A stretch of DNA of 64,000 bases from Clostridiaceae bacterium AM27-36LB. GTDB taxonomy: Bacteria > Bacillota > Clostridia > Lachnospirales > Lachnospiraceae. The stretch lies in the NCBI GenBank assembly GCA_003480725.1, contig QUJQ01000001.1, positions 62,001 to 126,000 of the forward strand, given 5' to 3'. Below are positions 45,381 to 63,627 of this stretch, piece after piece. The translations under genes were made by a program, and so were the position numbers. Each line of letters opens with the position of its first letter. The stretch's first letter is position 1. The notes beneath the pieces are model-generated. The model saw nothing but the letters and a program-made list of their open reading frames with translations, made no database searches and was not told the origin of the DNA.

Positions 45381-45403
45381 AGGGAGAGATAGAGGCATAG
45401 CAA

Positions 45404-45910
45404 GTGGAGGAAAGAAAAAGGCTGATTGCAGAAATACGTGCATTTCTTGTAAAAGCGGCGATCATGGCTGTGACCCTGTGGGTGATCTTTGGTGTTGTAT
45501 TCGGAGTTGTGCCCATGAAGGATCAGTCCATGATGCCGAAGCTGGCAGCCGGAGATCTCTTGTTGTATTACCGTCTGGATCATACGCCTGGAGACAGAGA
45601 AGTAGTGGTGTTTGAAAAAGAAGGCAAGACCTGTGTAGGAAGAGTGGTTGCCAGAGGTGGGGATACGGTAGAGATCCGGGAAGATGCATTGCTTCAGATC
45701 AATGGAAACGCCATTGTGGAAAATGAGATCTATTATTCGACAGAACCATATGAGGAGGGGATCAAGTATCCTGTCACACTTACTGATGAGGAAGTGTTTA
45801 TCCTGTGTGATTATCGGCAAGGCGCAAAAGACAGCCGGTATTTCGGACCGGTAACGAAGAAGGAATTAAAGGGAACGGTGATCACGGCAATTCGAAGATC
45901 AGGGATCTAG
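45404..45910 (+). CDS. Signal peptidase I homologue with substituted catalytic lysine (SipA-like)
   Basis: The 168-residue membrane-anchored protein starts at GTG (AGAGG 8 bases before). It has the SPase I motifs: serine loop DQSMMPKL (Ser42) and box D-like CVGRVVARGGDTVEI. The general-base Lys normally in YVKR is Gly79 here. In streptococcal pilus loci a SipA-like pseudo-peptidase with Gly at this site assists pilin polymerisation as a chaperone rather than an enzyme; here Ser is kept, so it may be inactive or use Arg80. It sits 23 bases behind the adhesin gene and before the pilin gene. Confidence 0.75.
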   Translation: MEERKRLIAEIRAFLVKAAIMAVTLWVIFGVVFGVVPMKDQSMMPKLAAGDLLLYYRLDHTPGDREVVVFEKEGKTCVGRVVARGGDTVEIREDALLQINGNAIVENEIYYSTEPYEEGIKYPVTLTDEEVFILCDYRQGAKDSRYFGPVTKKELKGTVITAIRRSGI

Positions 45911-45961
45911 GGAGAATTGAGTGCACCGGCATCAGTAACAGGAAAGAGAGGATCATTGAGA

Positions 45962-46999
45962 ATGAAAAGAGGAAATGTTTCCAGAAAAGTGGCAGCTTCT
46001 GTGATGACGGGAGCAATAATGGTATCCATGGCAGGTATGAGTGTATGTGCAGCGCCGATCGTTGGTGATGGCGATCATGCTATAGAAGCAGTGCCTGTTC
46101 AGAAGACAGTGACTACGGATGGACATACTTACGCACCGGATACATCCTTTAGCTTCCGAGTGGCAAATGGCGGAGAAGGAACCTTTGAGGGCAATGTGGT
46201 CAGCGCCGGTGTGACAGGCGGACTGGCAGCAGATGAGAATGCCGTATTTACACCGTCGGGAACAACTCCTTTGGCTTCTTATACAGCGCATGGAAGTCTG
46301 GCAGTTGATGGCAGTGTATTTACCTCTCCGGGAGTATACCATTATCTGGTAACAGAGGCATCTGGTGATTATGAAGGGATGGACTATGATAACAGCACCT
46401 ATGATGTATATCTATATGTGTACAATTCCAATAACGGACTCTATGTGGGAAATGCAGTCTCAGTGAAAAATGGAGACAAAGCTGATCTTGCATTTACCAA
46501 CGATTATGGAGCCAGAGAGGATAATGACAGTACCCATGATATCACTGTGATCAAAGAGGTTACCGGAACTATGGGAAATAAAGCAAGCCAGGAATTTCAG
46601 TTTGCAGTGTCTGTGGATGGCGGAGAAGGTGAATGGTATCAGGTGCTGGTAAAAGAGACAGCTGATGCAGCCGCAGTTGAATATCATGTAGTGAGCGGTG
46701 CACAGGCAACCAGCTATTCCATCAAACATGGCGGTTCCATTCAGGTTCTGGGGCTCAGTGAGTCTGACCAGTACAGTATCATTGAGGACGATTACAGCAG
46801 TCTTGGATATACAACAACCAATAAGAGCAATATTGGAACACTGACTGCAGACGGAACAACGATTACAGTAACCAACCATAAAGATGCAGCTTCTCCGACG
46901 GGTTTGGTAACTACTGTTGTACCATATGCGCTGATGCTTGGCATGGCTGGTTCTCTTGGCGCATTATTCCTCCGCAAAAAACAGCGTCCGGAAGAATAA
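45962..46999 (+). CDS. Pilin with two FctA/Spy0128-like domains and sortase signal
   Basis: The 345-residue protein has a signal peptide (to about residue 30, SVCAAP), then two Spy0128/FctA-type immunoglobulin-like domains. Possible isopeptide partners are VPVQKTVTTDG with FTNDYG, and ITVIKEVTGTMG with VTNHKD. YHYLVTEASGDYEGMDYDNSTYDVYLYV is a strong family segment. It ends SPTGLVTTVVPYALMLGMAGSLGALFLRKKQRPEE, a sorting signal with SPTG. An in-frame TTG at 45917 is possible, but ATG 45962 gives the proper signal peptide. It is the probable shaft subunit. Confidence 0.85.
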   Translation: MKRGNVSRKVAASVMTGAIMVSMAGMSVCAAPIVGDGDHAIEAVPVQKTVTTDGHTYAPDTSFSFRVANGGEGTFEGNVVSAGVTGGLAADENAVFTPSGTTPLASYTAHGSLAVDGSVFTSPGVYHYLVTEASGDYEGMDYDNSTYDVYLYVYNSNNGLYVGNAVSVKNGDKADLAFTNDYGAREDNDSTHDITVIKEVTGTMGNKASQEFQFAVSVDGGEGEWYQVLVKETADAAAVEYHVVSGAQATSYSIKHGGSIQVLGLSESDQYSIIEDDYSSLGYTTTNKSNIGTLTADGTTITVTNHKDAASPTGLVTTVVPYALMLGMAGSLGALFLRKKQRPEE

Positions 47000-47002
47000 C
47001 TA

Positions 47003-47743
47003 TTGCAGATCACACTCAGACTGGTAAGGCTGGGAGACAGATTGTTAAGTATTCTGGCAGGTTTTCTGATTCTGGTCATGTTTCTCTATGGCGGTTATTC
47101 CCTGTGGGATACCGCCAGAATCTATGGAAATGCGGCTGTGGGAGAAGAGCTTCTGAAATATAAACCCACTTCGGAGACGGAGGGGGAACATCTTTCGCTG
47201 CAGGAACTGGCTTTAATCAATCCAGATACCAGGGGATGGCTGACGATCCCGGATACGCATGTTGATTATCCGGTGCTCCAGGGGAATGATGATATGGAAT
47301 ACATCAATAAAGATGTGTTTGGTGAGTTCTCTCTGTCGGGATCCTTATTCCTGTCCTGTCGTAACAGTTCTGATTTTTCCGATGGATACAGCCTGATTTA
47401 TGGACACCATATGGATCATGGAGGAATGTTCGGAGATGTGGTGGAATATACGGATATATCGTATTTTGAAAAACATATGGAAGGCTGGCTGTATCTTGCG
47501 GATGCAACCTATCAGATCCAGATGTTTGCCTGTGTGGAGACCGATGCATATGACAACATGATCTATGGATGCGGAGCGGATACAGATCTGAATAAACTGC
47601 TTTCTTATATTAAAGAACATGCAGTTGTTTATAAGAATATGACAACAGATAGACCGGCGCAGGTGATCGGCCTGTCCACCTGTGCAGATGCAAGGACCAA
47701 TGGCCGTGTGATCGTGTTCGGACGGTTGGAGAAAATAAGTTGA
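47003..47743 (+). CDS. Class B sortase
   Basis: The 246-residue membrane protein has one N-terminal helix (about residues 15-35) and a sortase B-type domain: DTRGWLTIPDTHVDYPVLQGNDDMEYINKD, the catalytic His in YGHHM (His135), Cys227 in STCADARTNGRVIVFG and Arg235. It starts with TTG, four bases after the pilin stop. Given its position it should join subunits with the PPTG/SPTG/PRTG signals and perhaps attach the fibre to peptidoglycan. Confidence 0.92.
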   Translation: MQITLRLVRLGDRLLSILAGFLILVMFLYGGYSLWDTARIYGNAAVGEELLKYKPTSETEGEHLSLQELALINPDTRGWLTIPDTHVDYPVLQGNDDMEYINKDVFGEFSLSGSLFLSCRNSSDFSDGYSLIYGHHMDHGGMFGDVVEYTDISYFEKHMEGWLYLADATYQIQMFACVETDAYDNMIYGCGADTDLNKLLSYIKEHAVVYKNMTTDRPAQVIGLSTCADARTNGRVIVFGRLEKIS

Positions 47744-47762
47744 ACACAAGAAGGAGGTAGAT

Positions 47763-48446
47763 ATGATGAGGATGCAAATGATGCGGAAGCTTCGGTGCCT
47801 GGCATGGTTTCCTTGCCTGCTTGCATTCCTTTTGCTGCCGGGATCTGTACATGCGAAGGAATATGCATGTGATGTGACCATACCGGCAACGGTGCAGGTG
47901 AGCGGAGACAGGATTCCGTCAGGGGAAGTCTATGAAGTGGTTATGGAAGCCATCACCAAAGATGCACCTGTAGCGGAGAACATGACACAGAAGGTGCTGA
48001 ATAGTGGAACGGTTTCCTTTGGACAGATCCATTATACAGTACCAGGAGACCATCAGTATAAGATCTATCAGAAAAGCGGAAGCACTGACCGGTTCACCTA
48101 TGATAAGACGGTCTATACAGTAACTGTCCGGGTGCAGAATGATGCGGAAGGCGGACTTTTTGCAGAATTGTGGGCTGCAAAAGAAGGAACGGCCACCAAG
48201 ACCGATACGGTTCAGTTCCAGAATCATTATGATGCACCGAATGGTGGAGGCGGTGGCGGAAGCCATCATCATCATAGAACAGAAGAAACGGTGACATATA
48301 CAACGGTAATCCAGCAGCCACCGGTTGCAATTGGGGCACCGCGTACCGGAGATGCGCAGCAGCCTCTTCTGTGGGGTGCACTGATCCTGCTCTCTTTGAG
48401 TGGAAGCATGATAATTGTTGGAAAAATGAAAAAATGTAATTATTAA
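47763..48446 (+). CDS. Minor pilin/anchor subunit with FctA-like domain and His-rich linker
   Basis: The 227-residue secreted protein has a signal peptide (to about residue 30), one Spy0128/FctA-like domain (YTVPGDHQYKIYQKSG, FTYDKTVYTVTVRVQND, VQFQNHYD), a linker of six Gly, Ser and four His, and a C-terminal signal APRTGDAQQPLLWGALILLSL. It is small, and at the end of the operon, so it may be the base or anchor. The His cluster could bind Zn or Ni. Aaggaggta starts it; a terminator follows. Confidence 0.75.
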   Translation: MMRMQMMRKLRCLAWFPCLLAFLLLPGSVHAKEYACDVTIPATVQVSGDRIPSGEVYEVVMEAITKDAPVAENMTQKVLNSGTVSFGQIHYTVPGDHQYKIYQKSGSTDRFTYDKTVYTVTVRVQNDAEGGLFAELWAAKEGTATKTDTVQFQNHYDAPNGGGGGGSHHHHRTEETVTYTTVIQQPPVAIGAPRTGDAQQPLLWGALILLSLSGSMIIVGKMKKCNY

Positions 48447-51539: not shown

Positions 51540-51633
51540 TTGATATTTTTTTAACGTTATGTTATTTTATTAACAATGAGTTGCCCGGTCACTCGGGCAA
51601 TTTTTTTAAAGCAATTTGTTAAAAAAATAACAA
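51540..51633 (+). promoter_or_regulatory. ldh promoter with two Rex-like operators
   Basis: TTGATA (51540-51545), 17 bases, TATTTT (51563-51568). Site 1 at 51559-51576 (ATGTTATTTTATTAACAA) overlaps the -10 and matches 12 of the 14 fixed bases of the clostridial Rex consensus TTGTTAANNNNTTAACAA. Site 2 at 51616-51633 (TTGTTAAAAAAATAACAA) matches 13 of 14. Rex leaves DNA when NADH/NAD+ is high, turning on NADH-consuming pathways, which fits ldh and the redox operon behind it. Confidence 0.7.
51581..51607 (+). terminator. Intrinsic terminator between ung and ldh, inside the ldh leader
   Basis: TTGCCCG-gtcact-CGGGCAA then T7. It lies between the two Rex-like sites and downstream of the ldh -10, so it either ends the hisH-hisF-ung transcript (with the true ldh promoter further on) or attenuates ldh. 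Confidence 0.85.
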
Positions 51634-51659
51634 AAATGTCTTACTTGAAAGGAGTATCT

Positions 51660-52607
51660 ATGAGCAGAAAGATTACCATCATTGGAGCAGGAAGTGTAGG
51701 ATCTACGATTGCATATTCTCTGTCCCAGGAAGAACTGGCATCCCAGATCGTTATGATCGACATCAACAAGGACAAAGCAGAGGGCGAGGTTATGGATATT
51801 GAACAGGGAACCTGTTTCCGTGAGCCTATCTCAATCATCGCCGGTGATTATCCAGATGCCAAGGATTCTGACATTGTGATCATTACTTCCGGAATCGCAA
51901 GAAAGCCAGGACAGACCCGCATTGATCTGGCACAGACGAATGTTAATATCTTAAAGAGCATTACCCCTCAGATTGTTAAAGAAGCACCCAATGCATTATA
52001 TGTGATCGTAAGTAATCCGGTGGATATCATGACTTATGTATTTACGAAGATCTCCGGTCTGCCTGAGCGTCAGATCATCGGTTCTGGTACGATCCTGGAT
52101 ACAGCAAGACTTCGCTGCGGATTATCTGAAAAGCTTCAGGTGGCACAGAAAAATATTCATGCTTATGTATTTGGTGAGCATGGCGATACTTCTTTCATTC
52201 CATGGACAGGTGTCTATGTTTCCGGTATCCATGTGGATGAGTATGTAAATGTGGCGCAGCATATGGGCAAAGACGTAAAGCCTATCGATAAAGACGAGAT
52301 GATCGAGTATGTACGGAAATCCGGCGGTATCGTGATCGCGAAGAAGGGAGCTACCTTCTATGCCGTATCCAGATCCGTATGTCAGCTCTGCAAGACCCTG
52401 CTGGCATCTTCAGAGACCGTTGTGACGGTATCTTCCATGATGCATGGCGAGTATGGTGTGGAAGACGTATGTTTAAGTACACTGACGCTGGTTGGACCGA
52501 AGGGTATCAGCGGTAAGATTCCTATGAGAATGAACAAAGAAGAGACAAAGCAACTTCAGGCCAGTGCAGAAGCACTGAAATCTGTGATCGCACAGATCAA
52601 CCTGTAA
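51660..52607 (+). CDS. ldh: L-lactate dehydrogenase
   Basis: The 315-residue NAD-dependent enzyme reduces pyruvate to L-lactate (or works in reverse). It has ITIIGAGSVGSTIAYSLSQEE (NAD motif), the Arg loop GIARKPGQTRIDLAQTN, VSNPVDIMTYV, the active-site GEHGDTSFIPW (catalytic His), and the C-terminal helical end. ATG 51660 has aaaggagtatct. The hdr genes begin 37 bases downstream with no terminator, so LDH is probably part of the redox operon. Confidence 0.93.
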   Translation: MSRKITIIGAGSVGSTIAYSLSQEELASQIVMIDINKDKAEGEVMDIEQGTCFREPISIIAGDYPDAKDSDIVIITSGIARKPGQTRIDLAQTNVNILKSITPQIVKEAPNALYVIVSNPVDIMTYVFTKISGLPERQIIGSGTILDTARLRCGLSEKLQVAQKNIHAYVFGEHGDTSFIPWTGVYVSGIHVDEYVNVAQHMGKDVKPIDKDEMIEYVRKSGGIVIAKKGATFYAVSRSVCQLCKTLLASSETVVTVSSMMHGEYGVEDVCLSTLTLVGPKGISGKIPMRMNKEETKQLQASAEALKSVIAQINL

Positions 52608-52644: not shown

Positions 52645-53442
52645 ATGAAATACAGTTATTATCCGGGCTGTACTCTGAAGAACAAAGCCAGAGATCTTGA
52701 CGCTTATGCAAGAGCTTCTGCGGAGGCTCTTGGATTTGAGATGGAAGAGATCGAAGACTGGCAGTGCTGCGGCGGTGTATATCCGCTGGGCAGCGATGAG
52801 ATCGCAACCAAGCTTGCATCCATCCGTGCACTTCAGGCTGCCAAAGAAAAAGGACAGGAACTGATCACCGTCTGTTCCGCCTGCCATCATGTGTTGAAGA
52901 GAGTCAACGATGATATGAAGCATGTGGAGGATATTCAGACCAGAGCCAACAATTATCTGAAGCTGGAAGAGCCCTACAAGGGAGAGACCAATGTGCTCCA
53001 CTATCTGGAAGTACTCCGTGACCGGGTCGGATTCGATGCGATCAAAGAAAAAGTGACCTATCCGCTGACAGGCAAAAAAATAGGTGCTTATTATGGATGT
53101 CTGCTGCTCCGTCCTGGAAAAGTTCTGGAATTTGACAATCCGGAAAATCCGAAGATCATGGAAGATTTTATCCGGGCACTGGGAGCAGAGCCGGTCATTT
53201 ATCCATATCGGAATGAGTGCTGCGGCGGTTACATTTCATTGAAAGAAAAAGACATGGTAAAGAACATGTGCAACAAGATCGTGGAAAGTGCGGAAGGATT
53301 TGGAGCAGACATGCTGATCACCGCCTGTCCCCTTTGCATGTATAACCTGAATAAAAATACTGCAGGAGATCTTCCGATTTATTATTTCACAGAGCTTCTG
53401 GCAGAAGCCCTTGGTGTGAAAGAGGAGGTAGACAACGCATGA
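52645..53442 (+). CDS. hdrB: HdrB-like subunit (two CCG domains)
   Basis: The 265-residue protein contains both cysteine-rich CCG domains of heterodisulfide reductase subunit B: Cys9, Cys41-42, Cys77/80 and Cys152, Cys192-193, Cys228/231, each of which can hold a noncubane [4Fe-4S] cluster that cleaves disulfides in methanogen HdrB. In fumarate reductase TfrB this domain is fused to the Fe-S subunit; here it is separate. Gut Firmicutes lack coenzyme M/B, so the disulfide or other acceptor is unknown. It overlaps hdrC by 4 bases. Confidence 0.9.
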   Translation: MKYSYYPGCTLKNKARDLDAYARASAEALGFEMEEIEDWQCCGGVYPLGSDEIATKLASIRALQAAKEKGQELITVCSACHHVLKRVNDDMKHVEDIQTRANNYLKLEEPYKGETNVLHYLEVLRDRVGFDAIKEKVTYPLTGKKIGAYYGCLLLRPGKVLEFDNPENPKIMEDFIRALGAEPVIYPYRNECCGGYISLKEKDMVKNMCNKIVESAEGFGADMLITACPLCMYNLNKNTAGDLPIYYFTELLAEALGVKEEVDNA

Positions 53443-53828
53443 ATACAGTAAGCTCACAGGCTGAAAAGATCAAGGAGATCAGCGGCGTGAATCCGCTGAA
53501 ATGTATGAAATGCGGAAAATGCTCGGCGTCCTGTCCGGCATTTGACGAGATGGATATCAAACCGCATCAGTTTGTCTCCTATGTGCAGAATGAAAATATT
53601 GAAGCACTGGTACAATCGAAATCTCTGTGGAAATGTCTCTCCTGCTTCGCGTGTGTAGAGCGTTGTCCGAGAGATGTGAAACCAGGAAAACTGATCGATG
53701 CAGCAAGACAGCTGGTGATTCGTCAGCGTGGACAGAACTATCTGACCGCAGATGAGATCCCGGAACTGCTGGATGAAGAACTGCCGCAGCAGCTTCTTGT
53801 CAGTGCGTTCAGAAGATACAGGAGGTGA
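53439..53828 (+). CDS. hdrC: HdrC-like 4Fe-4S ferredoxin subunit
   Basis: The 129-residue protein has two [4Fe-4S] motifs, CMKCGKCSASCP and CLSCFACVERCP, flanked by helices (MDIKPHQFVSYV), the standard HdrC layout. It passes electrons between HdrA and HdrB. It overlaps hdrB by 4 bases; hdrA starts 4 bases after its stop. Confidence 0.9.
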   Translation: MNTVSSQAEKIKEISGVNPLKCMKCGKCSASCPAFDEMDIKPHQFVSYVQNENIEALVQSKSLWKCLSCFACVERCPRDVKPGKLIDAARQLVIRQRGQNYLTADEIPELLDEELPQQLLVSAFRRYRR

Positions 53829-53832
53829 CCCG

Positions 53833-55821
53833 ATGCAGAGAATCGGAGTATTTGTCTGTCATTGCGGCAGTAATATCGCTGCAACGGTAGATGTGAAAAA
53901 AGTAGTGGAAATGGTTCAGCAGGAGCCAGGTGTGGTTCATGCAGAGGACTATCAGTATATGTGCTCAGAAGCTGGTCAGGCAAAGATCGCTGCAGCTATC
54001 AAAGAAAAGCATCTGACAGGAATGGTTGTCTGTTCCTGCTCACCCCGTATGCATGAGACCACCTTCAGAAATGCAGCAAAGAAGGCGGGCTTAAACCCGT
54101 ATATGGTAGAGATTGCCAATATCCGTGAGCATTGTTCCTGGATCCATAAGGATATGGAAGAGGCAACCAAGAAGGCAGTGATCCTGGCGCGTGCTGCCAT
54201 TGCAAAAGTCAATTTGAATGCACCGCTGACACCGGGAGAGAGTCAGGTCACTAAGAGAGCTCTGGTCATCGGAGGCGGTATCGCCGGTATTCAGACAGCA
54301 CTGGACATTGCAGATGCTGGATATGAAGTGGATATTGTGGAGAAGACGCCAAGTATCGGAGGAAGAATGTCACAGCTTGACAAGACATTCCCGACACTGG
54401 ATTGTTCTGCATGTATTCTCACTCCGAAGATGGTAGATGCAGCATCCAATGAAAAGATCACGATCTATACATATAGTGAAGTAGAAAAAGTCAGTGGATT
54501 TGTTGGTGATTTTACAGTAGATATCCGTAAAAAAGCAAGAAGCGTGGATATGGACAAGTGTACCGGATGTGGTGTCTGTCAGGAAAAGTGTCCGTCCAAG
54601 AAGATTCCGAGTGAATTTAACAGAGGTCTGGGAAACCGTACAGCGATCTACACTCCATTTGCACAGGCAATTCCCAATGTACCGGTTATTGATCGCGAAA
54701 ACTGTATCAAATTTAAAACCGGAAAATGTGGTGTATGTTCAAAAGTATGTCAGGCCGGAGCTATTGACTATGACCAGCAGGATGAGATCATTACACAGAA
54801 ATATGGAGCAATCGTAGTTGCTACTGGTTTTGATGTGATCAAGCTTGACAATTATGATGAATATGCATACAGCCAGAGTAAAGACGTCATTACCTCCCTG
54901 GAGCTGGAGCGTATCATGAATGCGGCAGGACCGACCAAAGGACATCTGGAGCGTCTGTCCGATGGAAAAGCGCCAAAAGAGATGGTATTCATCCAGTGTG
55001 TTGGAAGCCGTTGTGCGGATGACAGAGGAAAGAGCTACTGTTCCAAGATCTGTTGTATGTACACCGCCAAGCATGCTATGTTGATCCGTGATAAATACCC
55101 GGATGTAAATGTAACGGTATTTTATATTGATGTGCGTACACCTGGTAAGAACTTTGATGAGTTCTACAGAAGAGCTGTAGAGCAGTATGGTGTGAATTAC
55201 ATCAAAGGACAGGTAGGAAAAGTGATCCCGCAGCCGGATGGAAAGCTTCTGGTGCAGGGCGTGGACCTGCTGGACAATAAGCAGATCAAAAAAGAAGCCG
55301 ACATGGTCGTCCTGGCAGCTGCCATAGAGCCTAATCCGGATGTAAGAAAGATCGCAACCATGCTGACTGCCAGCATTGATACCAATAATTTCCTGACAGA
55401 AGCCCATGCAAAGCTTCGTCCGGTAGAGTCACCGACTGCAGGAATCTTCCTGTCCGGTGTATGTCAGGGACCAAAGGATATTCCTGAGACCGTTGCACAG
55501 GCAGGTGCCGCGGCAGTCAAAGTTATCGGATTGCTTGCAAAAGATAAGCTGACTACCAATCCGTGTACCGCACAGTCAGATGAGCTGTTGTGTAATGGAT
55601 GTTCGACCTGTGCAAATGTATGTCCTTATGGAGCTATTTCCTATGAGGATCATCAGGTCAACGATCATGGTATCCGTGAGACCAGAAGAGTGGCAGTGGT
55701 AAATGGAGCACTTTGTCAGGGCTGTGGTGCATGTACGGTTGCATGTCCGTCCGGAGCCATGGATTTGAAGGGATTCTCCAACAGACAGATTATCGCGGAG
55801 GTAGATGCAATATGTCGATAG
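53833..55821 (+). CDS. hdrA: HdrA-like flavoprotein, electron-bifurcating subunit
   Basis: The 662-residue protein has the N-terminal HdrA domain (GVFVCHCGSNIAATVDV; Cys9, 11, 44, 67, 69), a thioredoxin-reductase-like FAD domain starting RALVIGGGIAGIQTALDIA (about 143-160), inserted clusters CTGCGVCQEKCP (243-253) and CIKFKTGKCGVCSKVC (291-306), and C-terminal ferredoxin motifs CNGCSTCANVCP and CQGCGACTVACP. The FAD of HdrA bifurcates electrons in methanogens. Start 53833 follows aggaggtgacc; the open frame begins upstream. It overlaps the next gene by 10 bases. Confidence 0.92.
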   Translation: MQRIGVFVCHCGSNIAATVDVKKVVEMVQQEPGVVHAEDYQYMCSEAGQAKIAAAIKEKHLTGMVVCSCSPRMHETTFRNAAKKAGLNPYMVEIANIREHCSWIHKDMEEATKKAVILARAAIAKVNLNAPLTPGESQVTKRALVIGGGIAGIQTALDIADAGYEVDIVEKTPSIGGRMSQLDKTFPTLDCSACILTPKMVDAASNEKITIYTYSEVEKVSGFVGDFTVDIRKKARSVDMDKCTGCGVCQEKCPSKKIPSEFNRGLGNRTAIYTPFAQAIPNVPVIDRENCIKFKTGKCGVCSKVCQAGAIDYDQQDEIITQKYGAIVVATGFDVIKLDNYDEYAYSQSKDVITSLELERIMNAAGPTKGHLERLSDGKAPKEMVFIQCVGSRCADDRGKSYCSKICCMYTAKHAMLIRDKYPDVNVTVFYIDVRTPGKNFDEFYRRAVEQYGVNYIKGQVGKVIPQPDGKLLVQGVDLLDNKQIKKEADMVVLAAAIEPNPDVRKIATMLTASIDTNNFLTEAHAKLRPVESPTAGIFLSGVCQGPKDIPETVAQAGAAAVKVIGLLAKDKLTTNPCTAQSDELLCNGCSTCANVCPYGAISYEDHQVNDHGIRETRRVAVVNGALCQGCGACTVACPSGAMDLKGFSNRQIIAEVDAICR

Positions 55822-56258
55822 AAAACAACGAAACAACATTCAGACCTAAGATCGTTGCTTTCTGCTGTAACTGGTGCAGTTATGCAGGAGCTGATCTGGC
55901 AGGAAGCAGCAGACTTTCCTATCCGGCAGATGTGAAGATCATCCGCGTTCCCTGTTCCTGCCGTGTAAATCCGATGTTTATTCTCCGTGCTTTCGAAAAA
56001 GGAGCAGACGGAGTGATCCTGTGCGGCTGTCATCCAGGAGACTGTCATTATTCAACTGGTAACTTCTATGCAAGACGCCGTATGACATTACTGTTTTCCA
56101 TGCTGGATTTCATCGGAGTGGAAAATGGCCGTACCCGTGTAGAATGGGTATCTGCAGCAGAGGGTGTAAAATTCTCACAGACTATGAATGAATTTGTAGA
56201 GAAGATCACATCTCTTGGCAGAAATGTGAGATTGGAGGATTTACGATGCAGGAACTGA
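55812..56258 (+). CDS. flxD: MvhD/FlxD-like [2Fe-2S] subunit
   Basis: The 148-residue protein has the MvhD pattern: CCNWCSYAGADLAG (Cys18, 19, 22), PCSCRVNP (48, 50) and GCHPGDCHY (71-78). In [NiFe]-hydrogenase complexes MvhD links the hydrogenase to HdrA; in FlxABCD-HdrABC systems FlxD does the same for a flavin NADH module. No hydrogenase is near, so the latter fits. ATG 55812 follows GGAGGTAG; it overlaps hdrA and the next gene by 13 bases. Confidence 0.88.
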   Translation: MSIENNETTFRPKIVAFCCNWCSYAGADLAGSSRLSYPADVKIIRVPCSCRVNPMFILRAFEKGADGVILCGCHPGDCHYSTGNFYARRRMTLLFSMLDFIGVENGRTRVEWVSAAEGVKFSQTMNEFVEKITSLGRNVRLEDLRCRN

Positions 56259-57220
56259 TAAAGAGGGCAAAAGAGCTGCTTGCTGATGGAACCGTGGCAA
56301 GAGTGCTTGGCTGGAAAGCCGGAGATATGCCCTGGAATCCGGAACCGGCATATTTTGAGACCGAAGAAAGTCTGAAAGAGTTTGTATACGACGGATTCTG
56401 CGGAGCGAATTTAAGTAAATATATGATCGAGGCTTCTAAACTGGATGGAAAGACACTGGTCTGCCTGAAGCCGTGCGATACCTATAGTTTTAACCAGTTG
56501 ATAAAAGAACACAGAGTAGATCGTGAAAAAGCATATATTATTGGTGTGGGCTGCAGAGGTAAGCTTGATATCGAAAAGATCCGCGAGACAGGCATCAAGG
56601 GTATCACAGATATCAAAGGCGCCCAGATTGAAAATGAGGCAGATACACTGACGGTGGAAACCCTGTATGGAGAGAAAACAGTAGAATATAAGGATGCCAT
56701 GTTATCTCGCTGTCATGTGTGCAAGGGAAAAGAGCACAAGATCTATGATGAACTGATCGGTGAGTCCAGAGAGACCAAGGATGCAGACCGTTTTGCAGAG
56801 GTAGAGATGATCGAGGCCATGAGCCCGGAAGAGAGATTTGCATTTTTCCAGAAAGAACTGAGCAAATGTATCCGCTGCAATGCATGCCGAAATGTCTGCC
56901 CGGCCTGCAGCTGCAGAAAATGTGTGTTTGACAGCACAAAATTTGACAGTGCTCAGAAAGCAAACAGTGATTCTTTTGAAGAAAAGATGTTTCACATTAT
57001 CCGTGCTTTCCATGTAGCAGGCCGGTGTACAGATTGTGGAGAGTGCAGCCGTGTCTGTCCGCAGGGAATTCCGCTGCACCTGTTCAATCGGAAATTTATC
57101 AAAGATATTGATCAGTTTTACGGCGAATACCAGGCCGGTGAAGATACCGACAGCAAAGGCCCGCTGACGAACTATACATTTGATGATGTGGAACCCAGCA
57201 TTGTGGGAGAAAGGGGATAA
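56246..57220 (+). CDS. flxC: Fe-S subunit with FrhB-like N-domain (FlxC-like)
   Basis: The 324-residue protein begins with a coenzyme-F420 dehydrogenase beta-like domain (VCLKPCDTYSFNQLIKEHRVDREKAYIIGVGCRGK) and ends with two 4Fe-4S motifs, CIRCNACRNVCPACSCRKC and CTDCGECSRVCP, plus CHVCKGKEH between. F420 is unlikely in this organism, so the first domain probably serves another flavin or is structural. Position between FlxD and FlxB suggests it is the FlxC subunit; the B/C assignment is tentative. Confidence 0.7.
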   Translation: MQELIKRAKELLADGTVARVLGWKAGDMPWNPEPAYFETEESLKEFVYDGFCGANLSKYMIEASKLDGKTLVCLKPCDTYSFNQLIKEHRVDREKAYIIGVGCRGKLDIEKIRETGIKGITDIKGAQIENEADTLTVETLYGEKTVEYKDAMLSRCHVCKGKEHKIYDELIGESRETKDADRFAEVEMIEAMSPEERFAFFQKELSKCIRCNACRNVCPACSCRKCVFDSTKFDSAQKANSDSFEEKMFHIIRAFHVAGRCTDCGECSRVCPQGIPLHLFNRKFIKDIDQFYGEYQAGEDTDSKGPLTNYTFDDVEPSIVGERG

Positions 57221-57223
57221 TGG

Positions 57224-58267
57224 ATGTACAAGATTAAAAAAGAAGATCTGACGGCATTATTCCGTGCCATTGCCGCAGAGCAGGAGCTGTATGTGCCGGT
57301 GAAAACCGCTGGAAAAGTAAATTTTGGCCCCTGGTCCGAGGATGCCGAGGTAGATATTGATACATTAAAAAGCGTAAAGTCTCCGAAAGATGTTTTCTTC
57401 CCTCAGAGTGAAAATCTCTATACTTGTGAACGGGAAGGACGCAAGCTCAAAGTCGAGCCGGAAGCGTTAAAAGAGCAGAAATTTACCGTATTTGGCATGA
57501 GAGCCTGTGATGTACAGGGTGTGAAGGTGCTGGATCAGGTGTTTTTAGCAGATCCGGTGGACAGCTTTTATGCAGCAAGAAGAGAGCATGGAACCATGGT
57601 GGCGATTGCCTGTCATGAGCCGGAGGAAAGCTGTTTTTGCAAGGTATTTGGTATTGACTGTGCAGAACCGGCTGCAGATGTGGCAGCCTGGTTTGCAGGA
57701 GAAGAACTGTACTGGAAAGCCCTGACTGAGAAGGGACAGACATTGACGGAAATTCTGTCAGGACTTTTGACGGATGCAGATGCAGAAGACGAGAAGAAGC
57801 TTTCTGAAGAACAGACAGCGATCCGTGCGATCGTAGAGAAGCTTCCATACAGCCATCTCTCTTTGGAAGGCTGGGATGGAAATGCAACAGAGACGAGATT
57901 CGATTCTCCGCTGTGGGAGGAGCTTTACAAACCTTGTCTGGCTTGTGGTACCTGCACTTTTGTATGTCCGACCTGTCAGTGCTATGATATCAAAGATTAT
58001 GATACAGGACATGGCGTGAAACGGTTCCGCTGCTGGGACTCCTGTATGTATTCAGATTTCACCATGATGGCACACGGCAACAACCGTACCAGCCAGATGC
58101 AGAGATTCCGTCAGCGTTTTATGCACAAGCTGGTGTATTTCCCGGCAAACAATAAGGGCATGTATTCCTGCGTTGGCTGTGGCCGCTGCGTGGAAAAATG
58201 TCCGTCTGCCCTGAATATTGTAAAAGTGATCAAAGCATTTGAAAAAAAAGGGGGAGAAAAGGCATGA
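57224..58267 (+). CDS. flxB: 4Fe-4S subunit, AsrA/HydB-like (FlxB-like)
   Basis: The 347-residue protein resembles AsrA and hydrogenase beta subunits: FGMRACDVQGVKVLDQVFLADPVDSFYAARREH, ACHEPEESCFCKVFG, then CLACGTCTFVCPTCQC, DSCMYSDFTMMAHGNNR and CVGCGRCVEKCP. Such proteins relay electrons between a FAD/NAD(P)H module and the rest of a soluble complex. It overlaps the FlxA-like gene by 4 bases. Confidence 0.82.
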   Translation: MYKIKKEDLTALFRAIAAEQELYVPVKTAGKVNFGPWSEDAEVDIDTLKSVKSPKDVFFPQSENLYTCEREGRKLKVEPEALKEQKFTVFGMRACDVQGVKVLDQVFLADPVDSFYAARREHGTMVAIACHEPEESCFCKVFGIDCAEPAADVAAWFAGEELYWKALTEKGQTLTEILSGLLTDADAEDEKKLSEEQTAIRAIVEKLPYSHLSLEGWDGNATETRFDSPLWEELYKPCLACGTCTFVCPTCQCYDIKDYDTGHGVKRFRCWDSCMYSDFTMMAHGNNRTSQMQRFRQRFMHKLVYFPANNKGMYSCVGCGRCVEKCPSALNIVKVIKAFEKKGGEKA

Positions 58268-59118
58268 GCGAATGTACCTGTCATAAAAACTATACAGAAG
58301 ATGTGCTGATCCCTCAGGTTGGAGTGATCACAGATATCCGTCAGGAGACACCGGATGTAAAGACGTTCCGGGTCAATGCTCCGGAGGGTGGAAAATTATT
58401 TGAACATATGCCTGGACAGTGTGCTATGCTGTGTGTACCGGGAGTCAGTGAAGGAATGTTTTCTATTACTTCTTCACCGACTAATAAAGAATATCAGGAG
58501 TTCAGTATCAAGAAGTGCGGAAGTCTGACAGAGACGCTGCACAGTCTGGAAGTAGGTGATGAGATCACCGTCCGCGGACCCTATGGAAACCATTTTCCAG
58601 TGAAGGATAAGCTGAAAGGTAAAAATCTGCTGTTTATCGCCGGAGGTATCGGACTTGCACCACTTCGTTCTGTGATCAATTATGTGCTGGACAACCGGGC
58701 AGATTACGGAACTGTTGATATTTTATACGGATCCCGTTCTGCAGATGATCTGGTACAGTTAAAAGAGATCCAGGAAGTCTGGATGAAGGCAGAAAATGTC
58801 AATGTATATCTGACTATTGACCGGGAACAGGAAGGCTGGGACGGTCATGTGGGATTTGTTCCGACCTACTTAAAAGAGATTGGATTTGACACGGATAAGA
58901 CCGCTCTGGTATGTGGACCGCCTATTATGATCAAGTTTGTACTTGCAGGTCTGGAAGAGCTTGGATTTTCAAGAGATCAGGTCTATACCACATTGGAGCT
59001 TCGTATGAAGTGCGGTGTTGGGAAATGTGGACGCTGCAATATTGGAACCAAATATGTGTGCAAAGACGGCCCGGTATTCCGTTGTGATGAGTTGGATGAG
59101 ATGCCTGCGGAGTACTAG
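58264..59118 (+). CDS. flxA: FAD/NAD(P)-binding oxidoreductase, AsrB/HydG-like (FlxA-like)
   Basis: The 284-residue protein has a FAD domain (HMPGQCAMLCVPGVSEGMFSITSSP), the NAD(P)-binding part LLFIAGGIGLAPLRSVINYVLD...YGSRSADDL, CGPPIMIKFVLAGLEELG and a C-terminal Cys motif CGVGKCGRCNIGTKYVC for a [2Fe-2S] as in PyrK. It should be the NADH entry of the complex. Confidence 0.88.
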   Translation: MSECTCHKNYTEDVLIPQVGVITDIRQETPDVKTFRVNAPEGGKLFEHMPGQCAMLCVPGVSEGMFSITSSPTNKEYQEFSIKKCGSLTETLHSLEVGDEITVRGPYGNHFPVKDKLKGKNLLFIAGGIGLAPLRSVINYVLDNRADYGTVDILYGSRSADDLVQLKEIQEVWMKAENVNVYLTIDREQEGWDGHVGFVPTYLKEIGFDTDKTALVCGPPIMIKFVLAGLEELGFSRDQVYTTLELRMKCGVGKCGRCNIGTKYVCKDGPVFRCDELDEMPAEY

Positions 59119-59134
59119 AGAAAGGATGACGAAA

Positions 59135-59809
59135 ATGGAAAATATGGTAAATGTCTATTTCTTCGGTAAGAAATACAGTGTTCCTGCAGATCTGACCATC
59201 ATGACTGCTATGGAATATGCCGGATATACATTAAAGAGAGGATGTGGCTGCCGCCACGGTTTCTGTGGTGCCTGTGCAACCATTTACAGAATTAAGGGAA
59301 AGAATGAGCTGAAGACCTGTCTGGCCTGTCAGACGCAGGTACAGGAAGGCATGTATGTGGCAAGCATTCCGTTCTTCCCGACAGATAAACGAACCTATGA
59401 TATCAATGATCTGAAGCCGGGTCAGCAGGTGATGATGGAACTTTATCCGGAGATCTACAGCTGTATTGGTTGTAATGCCTGTACCAAAGCCTGTACCCAG
59501 AGTCTTAATGTCATGCAGTATATTGCTTATGCACAGAGAGGAGAACTGGAGAAATGTGCAGAAGAGTCCTTTGACTGTGTAAGCTGCGGCTGCTGTTCTG
59601 TTCGTTGTCCGGCAGAGATCTCTCATTCAATGGTGGGACTGCTGGCAAGACGTCTGACTGGTAAATACATTGCTCCGGAAGCAAAGCATCTGACCAGACG
59701 TGTGGAAGAGATTCATGAAGGTGCTTATGATGATCTGATCGAGCAGATCATGCACAAGCCGATCACGGAGATGCAGGAGCTTTATAACAACAGAGAGATT
59801 GAGAAATAG
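59135..59809 (+). CDS. Succinate dehydrogenase/fumarate reductase-type Fe-S subunit (soluble FrdB-like)
   Basis: The 224-residue protein has an N-terminal ferredoxin domain (Cys39, 44, 47, 62) for [2Fe-2S] and a C-terminal dicluster: CIGCNACTKAC (110-120) and CVSCGCCSVRC (148-158). TfrB and SdhB/FrdB share this layout; the CCG domain of TfrB is absent and instead occurs as HdrB in the same operon. No transmembrane anchor gene follows. ATG 59135 is chosen; GAAAGG gives a sensible distance, while the ATG at 59126 is too close. Confidence 0.8.
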   Translation: MENMVNVYFFGKKYSVPADLTIMTAMEYAGYTLKRGCGCRHGFCGACATIYRIKGKNELKTCLACQTQVQEGMYVASIPFFPTDKRTYDINDLKPGQQVMMELYPEIYSCIGCNACTKACTQSLNVMQYIAYAQRGELEKCAEESFDCVSCGCCSVRCPAEISHSMVGLLARRLTGKYIAPEAKHLTRRVEEIHEGAYDDLIEQIMHKPITEMQELYNNREIEK

Positions 59810-59823
59810 GGAGGGCATGAAAA

Positions 59824-61437
59824 ATGTATGCACCATATCCAGAAAATATGATGGAGTCGGTCAAAAAGGTAGAAGCTACAAGAGCAGAGCGTATGGCAAC
59901 AGAGCCCAGACGTCTGACCGCAGATGAAAAGGATGCTCTTCTGAAAGAGTTCCATCCGGATTATAATCCAGATGCATTTGCCCAGATCAAGGTGGGACCG
60001 AACAAAGGACAGAAGGCACCGCTGGAGCTGGCAGAGATGCTGCATTCCACCAGCCGTCTGCTCCATGAGAAGATCGACCTTACAAAAATTGATTATGATG
60101 TGGATGTGCTTGTGATCGGCGGCGGCGGAGCAGGTTCTTCCTGTGCCATTGAGGCGCACAACGCCGGAGCAGACGTTATGATCGTAACCAAGCTTAGAAT
60201 CGGTGATGCCAATACAATGATGGCAGAGGGAGGAATCCAGGCAGCAGATAAGGAGAATGATTCTCCAGTACAGCACTATCTGGATTGCTTCGGCGGCGGA
60301 CATTTCGCTGCAAAACCAGAGCTGGTAAAGAGACTGGTTATGGAAGCCCCGGACGCGATCAAATGGCTCAATGAACTGGGTGTTGAGTTTGATAAAGAGG
60401 CAGATGGAACTATGATCACCACTCACGGTGGCGGAACTTCCAGAAAGAGAATGCACGCAGCAAAGGATTATTCTGGATCTGAGATCATGCGTACCATCAG
60501 GGATGAGGTTCTGAATCTGGGAATTCCGGTAGTTGAGTTCACCTCTGCTGTAGAGCTTCTGAAAGATGAGAAAGGTCAGGTTGCAGGAGCCGTTCTCCAG
60601 AATATGGAGACCGGTGATTATATGGTGGCAAGAGCCAAAACAGTTGTGATCGCAACCGGCGGTGCAGGAAGAATGCATTACCAGGGATTCCCGACCTCTA
60701 ACCACTATGGAGCAACAGCAGATGGACTTGTGTTAGGATACCGTGCCGGTGCAGCACTGCTGTATCAGGATTCTATCCAGTATCACCCGACAGGAGCTGT
60801 ATATCCTTCTCAGATCCTTGGTGCGCTGGTAACAGAAAAAGTACGTTCTGTCGGTGCTCAGCTGGTCAATGCTGAGGGTGAAGCTTATATTCATCCGCTG
60901 GAGACCCGTGATGTCAACGCTTCCGGCGTCATCCGTGAGTGCAGAGAAGGCCGCGGTGTAGAAGTTCCGGGCGGACTCAAAGGTGTATGGCTGGATACTC
61001 CAATGATCGAGATCCTCGGAGGCGAAGGAACCATTGAAAAACGGATTCCGGCAATGTTCCGTATGTACATGAACTATGGCATTGACATGAGAAAAGTTCC
61101 GATCGTGATCTATCCGACCCTTCACTACCAGAATGGAGGACTTGAGATCAATGGAGATGGATTTACCAAAGAGATCCCGAACCTCTTAGTTGCAGGAGAA
61201 GCAGCAGGCGGAATCCATGGAACCAACCGGCTGATGGGTAATTCCCTGCTGGATGTGATCGTATTTGGACGTAATGCCGGCAAAAAGGCTGCAGCAAAAT
61301 GCAAGGATGTTGAGCTTGGCAAGCTGAATCTGGATCATATTTATCATTATGAAGATGAACTGGAGCAAGCAGACATTCATACAGGAAAAATGTCGCCGAT
61401 GCTTCTGCCGAATTATGCAAGACATGAGCAGCGATAA
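59824..61437 (+). CDS. Fumarate reductase/succinate dehydrogenase-type flavoprotein (FrdA/TfrA-like)
   Basis: The 537-residue protein has about 90 extra N-terminal residues and then the FAD domain VDVLVIGGGGAGSSCAIEA. Catalytic residues of the family are conserved: HPTG (His321), Arg341 in EKVRSVGAQL, His434 in PTLHYQNGGL, Arg469 in GTNRLMGNSLLDVIVFGR. The covalent-FAD His of membrane enzymes is replaced (GDANTMMAEGGI), so FAD is noncovalent, as in soluble thiol:fumarate reductases. L-aspartate oxidase is the main alternative, less likely beside the Fe-S subunit and fumarase. Confidence 0.82.
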   Translation: MYAPYPENMMESVKKVEATRAERMATEPRRLTADEKDALLKEFHPDYNPDAFAQIKVGPNKGQKAPLELAEMLHSTSRLLHEKIDLTKIDYDVDVLVIGGGGAGSSCAIEAHNAGADVMIVTKLRIGDANTMMAEGGIQAADKENDSPVQHYLDCFGGGHFAAKPELVKRLVMEAPDAIKWLNELGVEFDKEADGTMITTHGGGTSRKRMHAAKDYSGSEIMRTIRDEVLNLGIPVVEFTSAVELLKDEKGQVAGAVLQNMETGDYMVARAKTVVIATGGAGRMHYQGFPTSNHYGATADGLVLGYRAGAALLYQDSIQYHPTGAVYPSQILGALVTEKVRSVGAQLVNAEGEAYIHPLETRDVNASGVIRECREGRGVEVPGGLKGVWLDTPMIEILGGEGTIEKRIPAMFRMYMNYGIDMRKVPIVIYPTLHYQNGGLEINGDGFTKEIPNLLVAGEAAGGIHGTNRLMGNSLLDVIVFGRNAGKKAAAKCKDVELGKLNLDHIYHYEDELEQADIHTGKMSPMLLPNYARHEQR

Positions 61438-61450
61438 TTGATAAAACTGG

Positions 61451-61500
61451 ACGGACAGACACAGGAAGATTTTGCACCCTATGTCTGTCCGTGTTACAAT
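61451..61500 (+). promoter_or_regulatory. Hairpin with embedded promoter before fumarase
   Basis: Inverted repeat ACGGACAGACA (61451-61461) / TGTCTGTCCGT (61482-61492) without a U-run; a promoter TTGCAC (61472-61477), 17 bases, TACAAT (61495-61500) lies on it. The fumarase genes may therefore have an internal promoter with the hairpin as operator or weak terminator. Confidence 0.6.
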
Positions 61501-61531
61501 AGACAAAAAGTTCCATAAGAGGAGGTTTATC

Positions 61532-62377
61532 ATGATACGTGAAGTAAATGTCAGTCAGCTCACGGATGTGGTCGAGAGACTGTGCATCGAGGCAAATGAG
61601 CATCTTCCGTCCGATGTGAAATGTGCTATTGAGCATTGCCGTGCCTGCGAGGATGGGGAAATCGCCCAGGGGGTACTCGATAATATCATTGAAAATTATA
61701 AAATTGCGGATGCAGAGAATGTACCGATCTGTCAGGATACAGGTATGGCCTGTGTGTTCCTGGAGATCGGACAGGATGTACATCTGACAGGCGGAGATCT
61801 TGCAGAAGCAATTGATGAAGGTGTACGCAGAGGTTATGATAAAGGATATTTACGAAAATCTGTAGTGAAAGATCCAGTTCGCAGAGGCAATACAGGGGAT
61901 AATACTCCGGCAATGCTCTATACAGAGATCGTGCCTGGTGACAAGATTAAAGTGACTGTAGGACCGAAAGGCTTTGGCAGCGAAAATATGAGCATGATCC
62001 GTATGTTCAAGCCTTCAGCAGGACTTCAGGGAATCAAGGACTTTATCCTGGAAGTCGTAGAGACCGCAGGCCCGAATCCCTGCCCGCCTATGGTGGTTGG
62101 CGTTGGCATTGGAGGAACCTTTGATAAATGTGCGCTGCTGGCTAAGAAAGCTTTGATGCGTCCGCTGGATTCCGAAAATCCGGATCCGTTCTATGCAGAT
62201 CTGGAAAAAGAGATGCTGGAGAAGATCAATAAGCTTGGTATCGGACCGCAGGGATTTGGAGGAAAGACCACAGCAATCGGACTGAATATCGAGACTTTAC
62301 CGACCCATATTGCAGGCATGCCTTGTGCAGTCAATATCAACTGTCATGTGACACGCCATAAGACGGAGGTGATTTAG
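61532..62377 (+). CDS. fumA: Fumarate hydratase class I, alpha subunit
   Basis: The 281-residue subunit of the two-part [4Fe-4S] fumarase (TtdA-like) interconverts malate and fumarate. Segments are AIEHCRACEDGEIAQGVL, NVPICQDTGMACVFLEIG (cluster Cys), PCPPMVVGVGIGGTFDKCALLAKKAL and the CAVNINCHVTRHK end. The start follows aagaggaggttt. The beta gene starts immediately after its TAG. Confidence 0.95.
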   Translation: MIREVNVSQLTDVVERLCIEANEHLPSDVKCAIEHCRACEDGEIAQGVLDNIIENYKIADAENVPICQDTGMACVFLEIGQDVHLTGGDLAEAIDEGVRRGYDKGYLRKSVVKDPVRRGNTGDNTPAMLYTEIVPGDKIKVTVGPKGFGSENMSMIRMFKPSAGLQGIKDFILEVVETAGPNPCPPMVVGVGIGGTFDKCALLAKKALMRPLDSENPDPFYADLEKEMLEKINKLGIGPQGFGGKTTAIGLNIETLPTHIAGMPCAVNINCHVTRHKTEVI

Positions 62378-62941
62378 ATGGCAGCAAGAAAGATTACATT
62401 ACCATTGACCGAAGAACTGGCAAAGACTCTGCATGCAGGGGACAGTGTTCTCCTGACCGGCACCATCTATACGTCCCGTGATGCTGGACATAAGAGAATG
62501 TGTGAAGCATTGGCAAGAGGCGAGAAGCTTCCTTTTGATCCTGCGGATGCAACGATTTATTATGTAGGACCGACACCGGCAAAACCAGGACAGGTCATCG
62601 GAAGTGCAGGACCGACCACCAGCGGACGTATGGATGCGTATGCACCAACCATGATGTCTGTAGGTGCCCGTGGTATGATCGGAAAAGGAGCAAGACTTCC
62701 GGAAGTAGTGGATGCTATGAAAAAATACAGTGGTGTGTACTTCGGAGCGATCGGCGGAGCAGGAGCACTGCTTGCAAAATGTATCAAGAAATGTGAACTG
62801 ATCGCATATGAGGATCTGGGTGCAGAAGCTCTCAGAAAATTGTACGTAGAAGATATGCCGTTAGTAGTTATTATTGACAGTGAGGGTAATAACCTTTATG
62901 ATGATGGAAGAAAAGCGTATCTAAAGGAGCATCAAAATTAA
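62378..62941 (+). CDS. fumB: Fumarate hydratase class I, beta subunit
   Basis: The 187-residue subunit (TtdB-like) has ITLPLTEELAKTLHAGDSVLLTGTIYTSRDAGHKRM, the signature GSAGPTTSGRMDAYAPTMMSVGARGMIGKGA, and EDLGAEALRKLYVEDMPLVVIIDSEGNNLYDDG. The alpha-beta pair yields fumarate next to the FrdA/B-like genes, suggesting a malate to succinate branch. Confidence 0.95.
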   Translation: MAARKITLPLTEELAKTLHAGDSVLLTGTIYTSRDAGHKRMCEALARGEKLPFDPADATIYYVGPTPAKPGQVIGSAGPTTSGRMDAYAPTMMSVGARGMIGKGARLPEVVDAMKKYSGVYFGAIGGAGALLAKCIKKCELIAYEDLGAEALRKLYVEDMPLVVIIDSEGNNLYDDGRKAYLKEHQN

Positions 62942-62946
62942 TCATC

Positions 62947-63627
62947 ATGAAAAGTTTTTACAAGTTATCAAAAAAGCAGCAGATGTCAGAGGCATTTATC
63001 AATAATGCATTTCTGGCATTATCTGGCGGTTTTCAGGATGCATATACCTATAACACCAGAAATGAAGTCTTTTCCAATGCACAGACTGGAAACGTAGTCC
63101 TTATGAGTCAGAACCTGATGACCGGAAACTGGCAGAAGGGACTTCGATATCTGGTGCCACTTCTGGCTTTTGCAGGAGGTGTACTGGTAGCTGAGAGAAT
63201 CGCAGAACGGTTCCGTTATGCAAAAAAACTCCATTGGAGACAGAGCATCTTGCTGATGGAGATCCTGATCCTGTTTGTTGTAGGATTCATGCCGGCAGAG
63301 ATGAACATGGGAGCAACTGCACTGGTATCCTTTGCATGTGCCATGCAGGTACAGGCATTTCGTAAAGTGGATGGATATGCCTATGCAAGCACCATGTGTA
63401 TTGGCAATCTGAGAAGCGGAATGGCAGCATTATCCGCTTTCATGAGGAATCATAAAAAGCAGCAGCTGGAGCAGGTGGGACATTATTTTGGTGTGATCTT
63501 CCTCTTTGCTGTTGGTGCCGGAATTGGTGGAAATCTCTCCATTCATTATGGCGTGCCGGTAATCTGGGGATCTTGTATCCTGCTGCTTATCAGTTTCTGC
63601 CTCATGTTTGCAGAGCAGATTGAATAG
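62947..63627 (+). CDS. YoaK family (DUF1275) membrane protein
   Basis: The 226-residue protein has about six transmembrane helices and DUF1275 segments: AFLALSGGFQDAYTYNTRNEVFSNAQTGNVVLMSQNLM, FACAMQVQAFRKVDGYAYASTMCIGNLRSG. The function is unknown. It lies 5 bases after fumB, with no clear Shine-Dalgarno seen except aaggagc upstream, and probably shares the transcript. Confidence 0.85.
   Translation: MKSFYKLSKKQQMSEAFINNAFLALSGGFQDAYTYNTRNEVFSNAQTGNVVLMSQNLMTGNWQKGLRYLVPLLAFAGGVLVAERIAERFRYAKKLHWRQSILLMEILILFVVGFMPAEMNMGATALVSFACAMQVQAFRKVDGYAYASTMCIGNLRSGMAALSAFMRNHKKQQLEQVGHYFGVIFLFAVGAGIGGNLSIHYGVPVIWGSCILLLISFCLMFAEQIE

Follow-up and report, generated by a model that had tools for sequence, protein, structure and literature searches.

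How could a member of the Clostridia reduce fumarate to succinate with a soluble enzyme, and what would the cell gain from it? This question is raised by a run of nine genes in a stretch of 64,000 nucleotides from Clostridiaceae bacterium AM27-36LB, a relative of gut Blautia (contig QUJQ01000001.1, positions 62,001 to 126,000; the whole stretch is called the window, and its numbering is used here). The run, hdrB-hdrC-hdrA-flxD(mvhD)-flxC-flxB-flxA-frdB-frdA, occupies 52645-61437 on the + strand, and class I fumarase genes come after frdA and end at 62941 (Table 1). We regard it as very probably a fumarate reductase operon of the type described for P. thermosuccinogenes. Judged from the encoded sequences, its products probably constitute a soluble fumarate reductase that depends on NADH, works without a quinone and feeds ferredoxin by electron bifurcation.

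The original prediction had listed these nine genes followed by fumarase alpha and beta, and all of them were found, intact and on the + strand. It had also described them as tightly packed, with gaps of up to 37 bases. The run is indeed compact, the widest gap within it being 16 bases, but 37 bases is the distance from the end of an upstream malate dehydrogenase (MDH)-like gene to hdrB, and frdA and fumarase alpha are separated by 94 bases. No membrane anchor gene was found within the nine-gene run of the window, and no transporter gene lies between frdA and fumarase there.

To describe the distribution of the run, a contig scan was made that gave at least 567 confirmed stretches, the best 80 of which were kept as loci. 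Together with 23 larger stretches from sampled genomes, these made up 103 loci, which are counted as loci and not as species, some species possibly being present twice. All nine genes occurred in the same order and on the same strand in 75 of the 103 loci. The other 28 showed only the 3' part of the run, because the fetched stretch starts inside it (first match within 179 bases of the start), and no locus contradicted the order, which held unbroken down to 63% FrdA identity. Contamination or chance clustering of the run is ruled out by this synteny. A protein search returned at least 7,999 matches, a number that does not imply orthology of all. Further, among 196 genomes sampled evenly across the class, FrdA (threshold E <= 1e-70) was present in 28 (63-93% identity; G001, the centre, counted), with flxA, frdB and frdA adjacent in every case. 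HdrA of at least 67% identity was likewise detected in 28 genomes, 27 of which also have this FrdA, on a different contig from HdrA in four (G012, G104, G131 and G182). In G037, which has HdrA without FrdA, the contig carries an incomplete hdrB, then hdrC, hdrA, flxD, flxC and flxB in full, and it breaks off inside flxA; in G076, which has FrdA, it begins inside flxC. These counts show a system that occurs widely among Clostridia and is rigidly conserved there. Two matches were irregular: hdrA of L021 is partial and lies in two pieces in G178, and the frdA match of L019 contains in-frame stops, pointing to sequencing error or decay.

The terminal subunits carry the residues of a fumarate reductase. 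In the residue counts that follow, homologues whose high-scoring segment pair covered <85% of the query or contained in-frame stops were excluded. His321, Thr323, Glu338, Arg341, Arg362, His434 and Arg469 of FrdA were invariant (102/102) and align to the SdhA active site; they include the catalytic His/Arg/Glu set of the fumarate reductase flavoprotein superfamily. Where SdhA and the quinol enzymes have the covalent-FAD histidine, Asn130 was found in 102/102 FrdA sequences. No Succ_DH_flav_C match was found in FrdA, and its N-terminal extension is conserved. FrdB retains the 2Fe-2S Cys set and two CxxCxxCxxxC motifs in 97/97. Classical FrdB has a quinone-proximal 3Fe-4S cluster, which, given the two motifs, appears to be replaced here by a 4Fe-4S motif. 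An alternative FrdB start is the ATG at 59126, and profile scans of FrdB ran from 59129. The extreme C-terminus of FrdB, ELYNNREIEK, was strongly conserved in 13 aligned sequences and is likely a contact surface. A FrdB-FrdA fusion (P0089) was not used as evidence; it is a single sequence that has lost the FrdA N-terminus at the junction and may be an assembly product.

All seven FlxABCD-HdrABC subunit types were present, as assessed with family profiles and not with the D. vulgaris sequences as reference. The ten Cys of HdrB that presumably ligate its two noncubane clusters and the eight Cys of HdrC were invariant (76/76 each), as were the ferredoxin-type Cys of HdrA (78/78). HdrA aligned end to end with 5odc_A (688 bits) and scored 795 bits with the HdrA2 profile (below its cut-off of 1100), the C-terminal part of which FlxD also matched. 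Conservation was slightly looser at Cys50 and Cys71 of FlxD (79/85 each) and at Cys270 of FlxB (88/89). FlxB scored 187 bits with ShyB, 166 with HydB and 159 with AsrA, all below cut-off, and FlxA scored 205 bits with 9nez_C.

The neighbours of the operon point to C4-dicarboxylates. Both class I fumarase genes lay downstream in 55 of the 75 full loci, and a class II FumC match was within the stretch in 10; in L113 and L125, FumC stands between mdh and hdrB and is above the TIGR00979 cut-off in both. That unrelated fumarases replace each other at the operon is strong evidence for fumarate as the substrate. An AspT/YidE-family transporter match followed frdA in 41/75 full loci (PF06826 in the two tested), and a DASS transporter occurred in 1/75, in a locus that also has a DcuS/DcuR-like pair (below the curated cut-offs) 5' of hdrB. 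Such a two-component pair, with scores below these cut-offs, precedes the operon in L133 (15308-17654, minus strand) and suggests C4-dicarboxylate regulation in one lineage. Further, an MDH-like gene was upstream in 50/75. In a Saccharofermentans metagenome-assembled genome (L007, 11755-15822), genes resembling an NADH-type bifurcating [FeFe]-hydrogenase by open reading frame (ORF) reading lie directly 3' of frdA and are perhaps a ferredoxin outlet.

The MDH-like gene lies outside the coordinates of the original prediction. Since the profile matches begin at residue 29 of its product, the true start may be at ~51660. The protein was above cut-off with the L-lactate dehydrogenase (LDH) profiles PRK00066 (351 bits) and TIGR01771 (330 bits) and just above it with the MDH subfamily PRK06223 (284.5 bits, cut-off 283). 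Its motif ARKPGQTR places an Arg at the substrate-specificity position, which we take to be position 102 in LDH numbering, where LDH (Gln) is distinguished from MDH activity. The aligned LDH 4m1q_A has Gln there. Arg is found in 1y6j_A, the top match in the PDB and itself deposited as an LDH, and in 51/51 operon-linked homologues. Thus, although the profiles favour LDH, we tentatively read the gene as a malate dehydrogenase from this Arg. The gene would complete, with fumarase and FrdAB, a route from oxaloacetate to succinate.

Profiles for Sdh cytochrome b, MenB, DsrC and RnfC were searched in the 28 operon-bearing sampled relatives. Sdh_cyt was above cut-off in 0/28 genomes (a below-cut-off match in one), MenB in 0/28 (below-cut-off matches in two; the futalosine route falls outside this test) and DsrC in 0/28 (a below-cut-off match in one).

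Neither the gene set nor the proposed mechanism is new. The original prediction knew of no described complex made of exactly these subunits; PMC7282089, however, already describes a 'succinate operon' in P. thermosuccinogenes that comprises fumarase, Flx-Hdr, two fumarate reductase genes and a hypothetical protein suggested to be a succinate transporter. As in the window, seven Flx-Hdr genes (if locus tags step by five) precede the two fumarate reductase genes, fumarase lies beside the operon and fumarate reduction is proposed to be linked to ferredoxin. As far as a description by locus tags allows the comparison, one fumarase tag precedes Flx-Hdr in P. thermosuccinogenes, like FumC in L113 and L125, whereas the window has a two-gene class I fumarase downstream and the MDH-like gene upstream, and it has no transporter gene between frdA and fumarase. 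Bifurcation was proposed for the P. thermosuccinogenes system in a 2019 preprint (10.20944/preprints201912.0288.v1) cited in PMC7282089, and again in a 2020 paper. What is added here is scale, context and a test case in Blautia luti. The phrase 'bifurcating fumarate reductase' was not found in the open-access library searched, which omits most subscription journals.

The operon also shares parts with other systems. FlxABCD-HdrABC of Desulfovibrio has all seven subunit types; its proposed acceptor is DsrC, whereas here FrdAB follows in the run. MetFV-HdrABC-MvhD of Moorella likewise joins HdrABC-MvhD to an NADH-linked terminal reductase, with bifurcation proposed and the second acceptor left open, but that reductase is a methylene-tetrahydrofolate reductase. 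In TfrAB of methanogens, FrdA-, FrdB- and HdrB-type parts also occur together; TfrAB uses CoM-SH/CoB-SH and is not known to involve Flx. The 8-methylmenaquinol:fumarate reductase SdhABE, which is quinol-linked and membrane-bound, is similar in that HdrB of the window scored best with SdhE (150.6 bits; methanogen HdrB 145.6 bits, both below cut-off).

From the genes, their order and conservation, the cluster ligands, the active-site residues and the pathway neighbours, we infer that the products form one physical complex in which HdrA bifurcates, HdrB hands electrons directly to FrdB and the reaction runs towards succinate. NADH would be oxidised at FlxA (FAD/2Fe-2S), from which electrons would reach the HdrA FAD by way of FlxB/FlxC and FlxD; there the pairs would be split. 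One electron would go to ferredoxin (endergonic). The predicted path of the other leads via HdrC and the clusters of HdrB into FrdB and on to the flavin of FrdA, where fumarate would be reduced (exergonic). The predicted reaction is 2 NADH + fumarate + 2 Fd(ox) -> 2 NAD+ + succinate + 2 Fd(red). With malate dehydrogenase and fumarase, the complex would convert oxaloacetate via malate and fumarate to succinate. Ferredoxin would be re-oxidised by Rnf or a hydrogenase, and coupling to Rnf would amount to net fumarate respiration without quinone. The original prediction had likewise proposed NADH as donor, fumarate and ferredoxin as acceptors and no quinone. This is the best reading and is strengthened by the comparative evidence, although bifurcation goes beyond what sequence can establish.

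Physiological data are available for B. luti, whose strain MSK.16.34 (genome G001) carries the operon (L005) with a FrdA 93% identical to that of the window. According to PMC12773636 (2026), B. luti makes succinate from sugars (0.42 succinate/glucose), fumarate reduction with methyl viologen proceeds in its extract at 504-989 mU/mg under six conditions, malate dehydrogenase activity is 496-2839 mU/mg, and frdAB, the locus of which is not named, is highly transcribed. The energetics were modelled there with a plain NADH-dependent fumarate reductase (3.05-3.15 ATP/glucose), and 'hdr' occurs 0 times in the main text. In P. thermosuccinogenes, the operon was up ~4-fold under CO2 limitation, not significantly for all subunits, and added H2 was reported to nearly abolish succinate (PMC7282089); CRISPRi is available for this species (PMC9044749).

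The published B. luti model corresponds to the first alternative, in which the same complex passes all electrons to fumarate and none to ferredoxin. Electron transfer from NADH to fumarate is strongly exergonic alone. However, a full HdrA that keeps its ferredoxin-type ligands in every homologue counted would be superfluous in a plain NADH-linked flavoprotein. Further, with E0' values of -320 mV for NADH and +33 mV for fumarate, ~68 kJ/mol would be wasted; we consider this version unlikely. With ferredoxin at -400 to -500 mV (PMC12773636), a bifurcating enzyme would yield reduced ferredoxin with each succinate at a net ~-33 to -53 kJ/mol (computed by hand).

A thiol-linked route, in which Flx-Hdr reduces a disulfide and the dithiol then reduces FrdAB, as in methanogen TfrAB, would accord with the noncubane-cluster motifs that HdrB keeps throughout (76/76) and with the profile scores of FrdA, which among curated profiles matched TfrA best (329 bits, under the cut-off of 718). 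We nevertheless find it improbable. TfrB is one protein whose profile matches cover both FrdB and HdrB, whereas frdB and hdrB are separate genes here, and DsrC was above cut-off in none of the 28 genomes, other disulfide carriers not having been searched for.

It is very improbable that FrdA acts on another substrate, such as aspartate (as an aspartate oxidase), urocanate or other enoates. FrdA does belong to the same FAD_binding_2 superfamily, and NadB profiles scored up to 254.6 bits with it (TIGR00551 252.9, below its cut-off of 452.75). However, in an alignment by eye, His201 occupies the position of NadB Glu121 in 102/102 sequences, and we take this Glu to be the characteristic L-aspartate oxidase residue. 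Further, G001 encodes a NadB-like protein elsewhere, in an ORF flanked by NadA-like and NadC-like ORFs (L137, names by ORF reading), and the operon's neighbours include two unrelated fumarases and an MDH-like gene. A reversed function, as a confurcating succinate dehydrogenase suiting syntrophs, is likewise very improbable: Hdr-Flx is assumed to confurcate in D. vulgaris during fermentation, but the neighbours suit a conversion of oxaloacetate into succinate, which both P. thermosuccinogenes (PMC7282089) and B. luti (PMC12773636) form as an end product.

Several observations weigh against a soluble bifurcating complex of this kind. FrdA was the least congruent subunit: in a set of 69 taxa, chosen with the same coverage and stop filter as the residue counts and without MDH homologues of <50% identity, its distance correlations were 0.78-0.87, as compared with 0.79-0.94 among the other eight. 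FrdA of L017 and of L012 shares 88% identity with that of the window, as compared with means of 73% (L017) and 77% (L012) for the remaining eight proteins; for L023 (Blautia glucerasea), the values are 80% for FrdA and 87% for the remainder. From these identities and distances, and not from a tree, frdA seems to have moved between lineages without its neighbours, being replaced in place. Such an exchange is compatible with a replaceable catalytic head and is not predicted by tight co-evolution. The AlphaFold2 models, built from 13-row alignments, were of low confidence (mean predicted local distance difference test score 46.3 for FrdA and 46.7 for FrdB). No complete fumarase was in the fetched stretch of 10/75 full loci (10 kb downstream were covered in L007, L012, L015 and L031, and 6 kb or less in the other six), and no MDH-like gene of >=50% identity was in that of 25/75, some stretches being short. 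RnfC was above cut-off in only 15/28 genomes, a figure that argues against Rnf as a universal partner, although several of the assemblies are split into many contigs. Further, G001 has a second FrdA/FrdB-like pair (L136, 2072-4862) beside a 179-residue membrane protein with an Sdh_cyt match below cut-off, possibly a second, membrane-linked fumarate reductase in Blautia; the B. luti activity and frdAB transcript can therefore not be assigned to the operon with certainty. Finally, no biochemical test of bifurcation for this system was found in the literature surveyed.

Table 1. Genes and other features of the operon region, in window positions.
Feature	Position	Strand	Remarks
Promoter-like hexamers (weak)	51540-51568	+	9/12 matches with TG, 5' of MDH-like gene
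Malate-dehydrogenase-like protein, LDH/MDH fold	51576-52607	+	Profile matches
HdrB	52645-53442	+	Two CCG domains, ligands for two noncubane 4Fe-4S clusters
HdrC	53439-53828	+	2x[4Fe-4S]
HdrA	53833-55821	+	FAD plus Fe-S, candidate bifurcating subunit
FlxD/MvhD electron link (FlpD)	55812-56258	+	PF02662, 182 bits
FlxC-like Fe-S protein	56246-57220	+	FdhB-like, C-terminal dicluster
FlxB, AsrA/HydB-like Fe-S protein	57224-58267	+	PF17179
FlxA, AsrB/HydG-like FAD/NAD(P) oxidoreductase with 2Fe-2S, putative NADH entry	58264-59118	+	PF00970, PF00175, PF10418
FrdB-like	59135-59809	+	2Fe-2S plus two 4Fe-4S motifs
FrdA-like flavoprotein	59824-61437	+	~90-residue N-terminal extension
Class I fumarase alpha	61532-62377	+	PF05681; PRK06246 414 bits, above cut-off
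Class I fumarase beta	62378-62941	+	PF05683; PRK06842 291 bits, above cut-off

The hexamers upstream of the MDH-like gene are no evidence of a promoter by themselves, because the promoter scan gave 22 hits in total as compared with 19.6 (sd 4.7) in shuffled sequence, which is chance level. The terminator scan gave 14 hits (shuffled 8.6, sd 3.1), 10 of them on the opposite strand. A DUF1275 membrane protein (window 62947-63627) starts 5 bases past fumarase beta and may be co-transcribed; a match was downstream in some relatives only. Elsewhere in the window (42573-48446), ORF reading indicated a putative sortase-pilus locus with a large repeat surface protein and signal peptidase-like, pilin-like and sortase-like ORFs. 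In G027, a 29th genome, a different HdrA (47-48% identity) lies in another cluster (L140, 3860-12520), in which GlcD-like dehydrogenase, two HdrD-like, HdrA, MvhD and [FeFe]-hydrogenase-like genes stand in a row by ORF reading; they may encode a further coupled complex built on Hdr and acting on a 2-hydroxy acid.

In the gut, succinate is among the major products of cross-feeding, and energy conservation from fumarate is not expected of Clostridia that lack quinones. If bifurcation is true, the stoichiometries of PMC12773636 (2 H+/2e for Rnf and 3.6 H+/ATP) would give ~0.56 ATP/succinate with Rnf, or ~0.23 ATP/glucose in B. luti on top of the amount modelled there. We see about even chances that the fuller picture holds, namely a single soluble nine-subunit enzyme with HdrB wired directly into FrdB that would, at this yield, let gut Clostridia respire fumarate via Rnf with neither a quinone nor a membrane reductase, as a main succinate route of Blautia-type commensals. 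In B. luti, a cultured species of the human gut for which succinate formation and fumarate reductase activity have been measured, a hypothesis that has been in print since 2019 can be tested directly.

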